Source of the DNA: Microcaldota archaeon
Lineage (GTDB): Archaea; Micrarchaeota; Micrarchaeia; Micrarchaeales; CABMGC01
Direction: 5' to 3'
NCBI GenBank assembly: GCA_021801225.1
Contig: JAJYYF010000007.1
Location: 1-61,019, forward strand
Length of the DNA stretch: 61,019 nt
Shown: piece by piece, positions 44,375 through 46,079 of the stretch
Layout: each line of letters opens with the position of its first letter
How positions within the stretch are numbered: position 1 is the first letter of the stretch
Notes under the pieces: generated by a model
What the model was told of the DNA's origin: nothing
The model's input: the letters and a program-made list of their open reading frames with translations, nothing else
Databases searched by the model: none
Made by a program: the position numbers and the translations under genes

Positions 44375-45166
44375 ACGGAAAATAATAAACGTTTTGAAAA
44401 TGACAATACAATAAACAAAATAATAGATGCGCATAGTGGCATGATTGGAAAAAATATTGCTGCGAAGATAGAATCTAATAAAAATTATAGCAAAAGTAAT
44501 GTTAAACAGCTTATTGCATTAAGTCCAAACGATAATGAGTTAGTTAGTATTGAAGACACAGTATATAGGATTTTTAATAAAAATAGGATAGAAAATAATG
44601 GAGTTACAAGATTAAGGAGAGATTTGGTTTTAGGTGAGGAAGGCAGTACATTGACTGTTGTTTTATGGGATAAAAGTTGTGAATTAGTTGATACACTTCT
44701 TGTACAAAGAGGTGATAAAGTTTTAATAAGCAATCTTAAGGTTAGAACTATTCAGGACTCAATAGAACTAATTAATACAGCAGGAACTTATATCTCAAGA
44801 GTTATTCCAACAGAGATTGATGTTAAAACTGATTTTTCAAGTTTAAATGGAAATGAAAAAAATATAGATATATTAGGAAGGATACTTTCAGTAAGTCCAA
44901 TTAGATACTTTAAAGATTTAGATGGAAAACAAAATGGTATATCCGAATGCACCATAAGTGATGGTTTTGTTGAAGGAAGAGTTACATTATGGAAATCTTC
45001 GAGTGGTTATGCAAATGAAATGCACCCTGGTTCATATATTAAAATAGAATACTGTTCAATTAAAAAGATAGAAGATAAGTTAGATATAACTGCAAATGAT
45101 TACTCAAGAATTTTGTTAGGCCAGGGGCTTACACCAAAAACAAATAGAAAAAATATTAAAAAATAA
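44375..45166 (+). CDS. RPA-like OB-fold single-stranded DNA-binding protein, possible non-canonical (ACG) start
   Basis: Two OB-like repeats. Open frame extends upstream of ATG 44441 without ATG/GTG/TTG to TAG at 44363; ACG at 44375 has GGTG five nt upstream. Confidence 0.7.
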   Translation, partial: TENNKRFENDNTINKIIDAHSGMIGKNIAAKIESNKNYSKSNVKQLIALSPNDNELVSIEDTVYRIFNKNRIENNGVTRLRRDLVLGEEGSTLTVVLWDKSCELVDTLLVQRGDKVLISNLKVRTIQDSIELINTAGTYISRVIPTEIDVKTDFSSLNGNEKNIDILGRILSVSPIRYFKDLDGKQNGISECTISDGFVEGRVTLWKSSSGYANEMHPGSYIKIEYCSIKKIEDKLDITANDYSRILLGQGLTPKTNRKNIKK

Positions 45167-45195
45167 TATTAAAATAAACAAACAGTATAGAAAGC

Positions 45196-45205
45196 TTTAT
45201 AAATA
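45196..45205 (+). promoter_or_regulatory. TATA box for the candidate ncRNA
   Basis: TTTATAAATA centred 25.5 nt upstream of 45226, the same spacing as for the 5S gene. Confidence 0.55.
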
Positions 45206-45225
45206 CTAATTTATAAGTTGTATAG

Positions 45226-45323
45226 TTTTCTGGGGGACAGGTTGAGAACTTATTTTTATCCCACCCAAATCCCAAAATCTTTTCTCTAAGTTATGCAGTA
45301 TGCATAACTCCACCCCCAGAAAA
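45226..45323 (+). ncRNA. Candidate structured non-coding RNA of unknown class
   Basis: 11-bp perfect closing stem TTTTCTGGGGG/CCCCCAGAAAA, internal hairpin AGTTATGC-AGTAT-GCATAACT (45289-45309), GC-rich island between convergent genes, upstream TATA box. Confidence 0.6.
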
Positions 45324-45329
45324 ACATAA

Positions 45330-46079
45330 TTAGAATACTTTCTTAAGATTTGGTTTTGTTTTTAAATTTGGTTTTATACCAGCATTAGTTATTTTTACAG
45401 GATATCCATTTCCAACTGCTTCTTTTATAATTTTAGAGTCATGTTCTTCTTGGAAAGTATTATTTGTATTTGACATTATTGTAAAGTTTCTAATTCCTAA
45501 AGCGGATCCTGCTAACTGAACATCACAAGTAGAACTTGAAACATTATTTCTTTGTGATACGTATGTTGAGTTTAAAGGCAAGCCTAGTTTATCACATAGA
45601 GTAGAGTATTTTTCAGTAGAAGGTTGCAGTAGCAACATATGTTTTTCACCAGTTACAACAGTATTTGTTTTTGCTAATTCAGTAGATATTTTCAACTCAG
45701 GATACCTTGTTTTTAAGAAAGTCGTGCCTAATTTTTGAAGTAGCTCAATTATATCTTGCGAAGAGTTAAAAAGTTTTATATCTTGAATATTTGATCTTAT
45801 TGTGGAGACAAGACCATCCTCTATTTCTGTTGTTGAGCTTTCTCCCTTTGTAAGTAAGGAGTAAGTAAATTTACAAGCGCCACAGTCAGTATGTGGTATG
45901 AATATTATCTGTTTTATAGGATAATTAGAGATAACCTCATCAAGTGTTGGAATAGCGCCGTAGGGATTACCTGCAGCATTCCTTATAAATATGCTTTTTC
46001 CATCGTTTAATGAATCAGCTATTACATTCATTCGTGCATCCATACACATTAGAAATAATTTATTTGGTTGGGTTTCCAT
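45330..46079 (-). CDS. Beta-carbonic anhydrase-like protein
   Basis: CMDARM, IRNAAGNPYG, PHTDCGACKF. Confidence 0.75.
   Translation of the reverse strand: METQPNKLFLMCMDARMNVIADSLNDGKSIFIRNAAGNPYGAIPTLDEVISNYPIKQIIFIPHTDCGACKFTYSLLTKGESSTTEIEDGLVSTIRSNIQDIKLFNSSQDIIELLQKLGTTFLKTRYPELKISTELAKTNTVVTGEKHMLLLQPSTEKYSTLCDKLGLPLNSTYVSQRNNVSSSTCDVQLAGSALGIRNFTIMSNTNNTFQEEHDSKIIKEAVGNGYPVKITNAGIKPNLKTKPNLKKVF

Follow-up and report, generated by a model that had tools for sequence, protein, structure and literature searches.

A probable new family of small non-coding RNAs in Micrarchaeota with a near-constant U-rich and CCCACC loop

The question raised by this locus is whether a short self-complementary stretch between two convergent genes encodes an RNA and, if so, how such an RNA might work. 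The stretch lies in a window (the whole piece of DNA that was analysed, 61,019 nucleotides) from a Micrarchaeota assembly of 0.96 Mb. The window is archaeal: SSU_rRNA_archaea, tRNA-Gly, 5S and tRNA-Glu are present in it. The original prediction, which was made from the letters of the window, proposed a novel ncRNA with its own promoter at this position.

The element in the window

The features of the locus are collected in Table 1. The perfect 11-bp closing stem, the 8-bp internal hairpin and the C-rich runs that had been described are all present at the positions given for them; in the window, CCCACCCAAATCCC occupies 45260-45273 and GAGAACTTA occupies 45244-45252. Apart from P1, the 61-kb window has no 11-bp inverted repeat that reaches 50% GC and has a spacer of at most 120 nt, and shuffled sequences contain 0 such repeats on average. 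The + strand of the element folds at -29.9 kcal/mol (z = -4.9 against dinucleotide shuffles). The fold is a three-way junction of P1, P2 and P3, in which the C-rich core sits in the open loop of P2. One point of the earlier description needs correction. The pairing of GAGAA with TTCTC is real, but it forms a third conserved helix (P2) and is not merely an alternative pairing. Furthermore, the element is richer in GC than the window (41% vs 30.5%), but 4.5% of the 101-nt windows are equally GC-rich, and the GC contrast, taken alone, is modest. No ORF of at least 50 aa overlaps the element.

The 3′ end of the predicted RNA adjoins the convergent carbonic-anhydrase-like (CA-like) gene. The OB-fold protein gene on the other side is co-directional with the RNA, and the TATA box stands between them. 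As a separate observation, the CA-like protein carries a CMDxR motif (window 45330-46079 (-); L035, L043, L044, L046 and L047). In genus g4, two CMDxR-type genes stand in tandem beside the RNA.

Table 1 Features of the locus in the window
Feature	Position	Strand	Remarks
Upstream neighbour, OB-fold (RPA/POT1-like) protein gene	44441..45166	+	PF01336 match weak and under the cut-off; also the neighbour in most genomes of g1 and g4
Promoter: purine-rich BRE-like stretch and TATA box GAAAGCTTTATAAATA	45190..45205	+	TATA box 45196-45205
Probable ncRNA gene, three-way-junction type	45225..45325	+	About 101 nt; ends predicted from promoter spacing and closing stem
P1, closing stem TTTTCTGGGGG/CCCCCAGAAAA	45226-45236/45313-45323	+	Perfect 11 bp; both-side changes in 11/13 model pairs
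P2, GAGAA/UUCUC	45244-45248/45282-45286	+	95.8% of cells paired; double changes in 5/6 pairs
P2 open loop: U-rich stretch, then UAUCCCACCCAAAUCCC	45250..45273	+	CCCACC at 45260-45265
P3, hairpin AGUUAUGC/GCAUAACU, 8 bp	45289-45296/45302-45309 (hairpin 45289..45309)	+	Double changes in 6/7 pairs; 95.6% of cells paired
Convergent downstream neighbour, beta-carbonic-anhydrase-like gene	45330..46079	-	PF00484 E = 5.7e-5, just below cut-off; conserved in g1 and g4

Homologues, covariation and promoters

With blastn, a full-length copy (88%) was found in G002 and two copies (about 85%) were found in G001. The matches in G009, G035 and G031 covered the core only. In these three genomes, the core UUUUAUCCC(C)ACCCAAAUCCCA...CUUUUCUC is near-identical, and the stems differ yet stay complementary. 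Further homologues, namely G072-G075, G003, G005 and a group in genus g24, came from a pattern search that tolerated one mismatch, and the homologues from both searches span the window's genus and two further genera. When genome contigs were scanned with the pattern, 35 stretches were obtained: the true ones belong to Candidatus Micrarchaeota MAGs (one of them labelled 'bacterium'), and the others are without stems.

A covariance model (CM R1) was built from genera g4 and g26 only, the window's genus being left out. In a search of the window's own genome, CM R1 recovers the window element at E = 1e-4. It also recovers the other members of the window's genus and, in addition, G004, which every earlier search had missed. 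The one genome of the genus with no CM R1 match, G006, is 59% complete. In an alignment of 14 members, which is fitted to the CM, 88.8% of cells pair vs 67.2% in shuffles, and two-sided changes occur in 22 of 26 pairs vs 13.7 in shuffles; sliding the pairing partners abolishes the covariation signal. RNAalifold on a plain MAFFT alignment (13 members) also recovered P1 and P3 with compensatory changes. Thus, the covariance check that had been proposed for this locus was run, and compensatory changes are present at the homologous loci. The stem sequences are entirely different between genera with their pairing kept, and the P2 loop barely changes across members while the stems covary.

A second model (CM R2), run on 40 further genomes, gave a second junction type (G032) and, among its weak matches, simple hairpins with the same loop. 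CM R3, which was built from five of these hairpins, found many more hairpin elements within the order and gave no convincing match elsewhere in the phylum. The compiled set holds 47 elements from 40 genomes and 13 genera (11 in the window's family and 2 in the sister family), with one to three copies per genome. The hairpin type is a plain hairpin of about 45-60 nt, GUGUUAAGG/CCUUAACAC, whose stem is kept but mostly sequence-conserved (GTGTTAAGG). G017 and G087 have three hairpin types each, which correspond between both genomes, and G032 has two hairpins beside one junction. In all 47 elements, a U-rich run precedes CCCACC (CCCAACC in one element), although this invariance is somewhat inflated by the fact that the members were partly selected by the motif itself. 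CCCACC and the U-rich run before it are constant, in contrast to the stems, the C-tract lengths and the junction type. The junction and hairpin architectures are probably homologous, judging from the short shared motif and the promoter geometry. The weakest members are those of G013, G023, G041, G064, G097 and G131. The CM matches L129, L133, L137, G046, G120, G122, G155, G028 and G030 and the second G094 match were judged to be due to chance or were not accepted, and the CM match G249 was left out of the assessment. Within the genomes searched, the family is found only in Micrarchaeota.

All 47 elements have a TATA-like box whose start lies 22-34 nt ahead of the closing stem, as compared with 12 of 188 control windows, which had the same width and lay further upstream. 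This evidence is largely independent, since the CM searches made no use of the promoter. In the window, the TATA box TTTATAAATA (45196-45205) is centred 25.5 nt before 45226, exactly as had been calculated. This spacing probably places the 5′ end of the RNA at the foot of the stem. The transcript would begin where the closing stem begins, about 22-34 nt past the strong TATA box, and would continue through the 3′ strand of this stem. A run of at least four T within 35 nt past the stem was found in 20 of 45 elements, which is no firm terminator signal. Based on the covariation, the TATA box of 47/47 elements and the blank Rfam result described below, we are highly confident that 45225-45325 (+) is a stand-alone ncRNA gene of a real, new Micrarchaeota RNA family. 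The original prediction of a novel ncRNA with its own promoter is upheld in this sense, its transcription being predicted from these signals.

The locus had also been considered as a possible MITE-like mobile element with 11-bp terminal inverted repeats. The inverted-repeat ends and the fixed-size interior fit a MITE, as do the two copies in G001 and the up to three relatives in G017, G087 and G032. However, the copy-number check gave one copy in the element's own genome, so that it is no dispersed element. Moreover, in most genomes of g1 and g4 the element lies between the same two genes. In G001, both copies sit in duplicated blocks that comprise NuoM-like, OB-fold, RNA, CA-like and AspRS genes (L031, L032). 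The stems differ wholly between genera yet pair, and the promoter spacing is constant. The single copy, the synteny among relatives and the unvarying distance to the promoter contradict a MITE, and we regard it as extremely improbable. The duplicated blocks of G001 have themselves diverged in sequence, and they represent either a real duplication or a mixture of strains in the MAG.

A terminator or a DNA-level regulatory palindrome, with no RNA gene, would suit a site between convergent genes, and the sequence conservation of the hairpin-type stem would also suit such an element. In contrast, the T's are on the 5′ side of the stem and the A's on its 3′ side, which is the reverse of an intrinsic terminator, and the left gene points in the same direction as the RNA with a TATA box in between. 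The hairpin-type copies adjoin unrelated genes in varied orientations. In addition, both the covariation and the conservation of an unpaired loop are signals at the level of RNA. Such an element without an RNA gene is therefore very improbable.

Possible working of the loop

Rfam gave no match at the window element even at E = 10, which agrees with the earlier statement that the element could not be matched to tRNA, SRP, RNase P or C/D-box RNAs. In a scan of 16 related loci, the only match at the elements was a chance one to a miRNA family, on the opposite strand at L008 (E = 8.2), and a literature search found no description of this RNA. Neither a tRNA nor an rRNA accounts for the element. 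RNase P RNA was likewise rejected: RNaseP_arch does not match at the element, and the true RNase P RNA is at G000:C1:9229-9469, G000 being the window's own genome. Archaea_SRP does not match at the element either, and a likely SRP RNA, which falls short of the gathering score (E = 1.9e-14), is at G000:C9:33061-33356. SRP RNAs of the window's genus score under the Rfam gathering threshold in four of the five genomes that have one. An H/ACA guide was rejected since neither an ANA box nor a 3′ ACA is conserved and the sequence past the stem is not conserved.

The element could also be a guide that directs the modification of rRNA or tRNA, or else a housekeeping RNA in divergent form (RNase P, SRP, H/ACA, C/D); its small size, its TATA-driven promoter and its conservation are what one sees in guides. 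Against this, the RNase P and SRP RNAs are found elsewhere in the same genome, Rfam is blank and the 3′ ACA is not conserved. The pairing energy between the loop and the LSU rRNA was no better than that of shuffles, and GGTGGG was absent, in a search that covered the available LSU rRNA, which for the window's genome was the 5′ two thirds. Furthermore, a guide would be expected to keep a constant C-tract length if its rRNA target is conserved, but the C-tract lengths differ from genus to genus. We consider this explanation improbable. During this work, we observed that the peptidyl-transferase region of the G034 LSU rRNA (L245, offset about 2560-2600) looks diverged and carries CTCTGGAGGTAACCGGTTCGTGG; at this place, GGGGATAACAGGCTGAT would presumably be expected.

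The main rival explanation is a trans-acting sRNA that blocks translation, its open C-rich loop base-pairing with mRNAs at G-rich stretches, mostly ribosome-binding sites. C-rich loops are a known base-pairing device in AT-rich bacteria (IsrR, PMC9410917; LhrC, PMC8079631). The element resembles staphylococcal IsrR (PMC9410917) in its open C-rich loop, its variable C-tract length and its AT-rich genome; its C-rich stretch is unpaired in a stem-loop, and, as with LhrC (PMC8079631), a genome can have several paralogs. In the first sample of G000, three of 296 genes have GGTGGG at exactly -9. However, among held-out genes, GGTGGG was found at Shine-Dalgarno sites in 0 of 203 (G000), 0 of 258 (G001) and 1 of 268 (G003), that is, with no enrichment. 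Because the held-out samples failed to reproduce it, the hint from the first sample is not counted as support. Occurrences of GGTG upstream in these genomes conform to the usual anti-SD pattern of archaea. In seven genomes of the genus, the counts of the core complement were near those of a reversed-pattern control. No conserved target complementary to the core was found across the genus, and the sole match that different species share is part of a coding region, where it encodes the motif RFGWGGSL. Among SRP, RNase P, 5S and tRNA, GGTGGG was found only in the SRP RNA of two species, with no consistent presence. Taken together, we think it rather unlikely that the RNA acts by base-pairing. Short seed pairing of 6-7 nt with a few mRNAs would evade these tests, and individual targets are possible. 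Three unrelated genes of the window's own genome have an unusual sequence around the start in common, with GGTGGG at -9 and then (A/T)TGGTA (L249:6102-7013 (+), L254:429-1070 (-) and L259:6823-7665 (-)); they are a possible co-regulated set.

Because sequence change is tolerated in the stems but not in the loop, the loop appears to be the working part of the RNA. The fold would hold open one pyrimidine-rich loop, a U-rich stretch and then CCCACC, and in many relatives the whole RNA would have been cut down to one hairpin of about 45-60 nt. Because the base-pairing tests were negative (rRNA, targets in the genus and held-out Shine-Dalgarno sites), we prefer, tentatively, a loop that binds a protein. 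The loop would be the binding site of an RNA-binding protein, and the RNA would serve as a small-RNP scaffold or as a decoy that keeps the protein off other RNAs. Taken by itself, this protein-binding role is a plausible proposal that may well prove wrong. The whole statement, a new ncRNA family together with a protein-binding loop, has in our estimate a little better than an even chance, a figure that is a compromise. In G094 and G098, there are two motif copies in one loop, and a genome can have up to three paralogs. Both features are compatible with a protein-titrating RNA.

An RNA gene that is kept in 13 genera with a near-constant loop is likely to be important. Small-RNA regulation in DPANN archaea, whose genomes are strongly reduced, is almost unexplored. 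The family supplies a defined motif (U-rich and CCCACC), predicted 5′ ends and a minimal version of about 50 nt, so that the putative partner can be fished out directly. RNA-seq data that exist for a cultivated Micrarchaeon (PMC8975820) may already allow the RNA to be measured.

Comparison with known systems

Among known RNAs, several share part of this architecture. We take the Y RNAs of Ro60 RNPs to resemble the element in their length of about 100 nt, their ends paired in a closing stem and their pyrimidine-rich internal loop. In contrast to them, the present family has no Rfam match, and its reduced hairpin types are too small for Ro-binding elements.

The Methanosarcina RNAs sRNA154, sRNA162 and sRNA41 are, like the element, stand-alone archaeal sRNAs (PMC5867862). 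sRNA154, which is described as conserved in Methanosarcina, acts via two exposed loops, one of which has an anti-RBS sequence (PMC5867862). Unlike these RNAs, to which it has no Rfam relation, the present family was found in Micrarchaeota only.

IsrR and LhrC of Firmicutes are, as the Micrarchaeota RNA appears to be, small intergenic RNAs with their own promoters in AT-rich hosts. Their stems hold single-stranded C-rich stretches with a variable number of C, and LhrC is multicopy. However, they belong to another domain of life and have no sequence relation to the present family. The Micrarchaeota RNA is without the rho-independent terminator architecture, its motif is fixed (CCCACC with a U-rich 5′ flank), and targeting of ribosome-binding sites is not detectable.

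CsrB and RsmZ differ in their motif (GGA, as compared with CCCACC) and in its many copies per RNA, as compared with one or two here, where the partner protein is putative. They are similar in that a short single-stranded motif, repeated or invariant, is shown in hairpin loops, with several paralogs per genome. We venture a speculation that we hold to be rather unlikely as a whole: a lineage-wide regulatory RNP of DPANN archaea, in which one to three small RNAs per genome would offer the loop UUUUAU(C)CCCACC to a dedicated putative protein and thereby titrate or guide it. Such an RNP would be an archaeal counterpart of Csr/Rsm that can shrink to a hairpin of about 50 nt.
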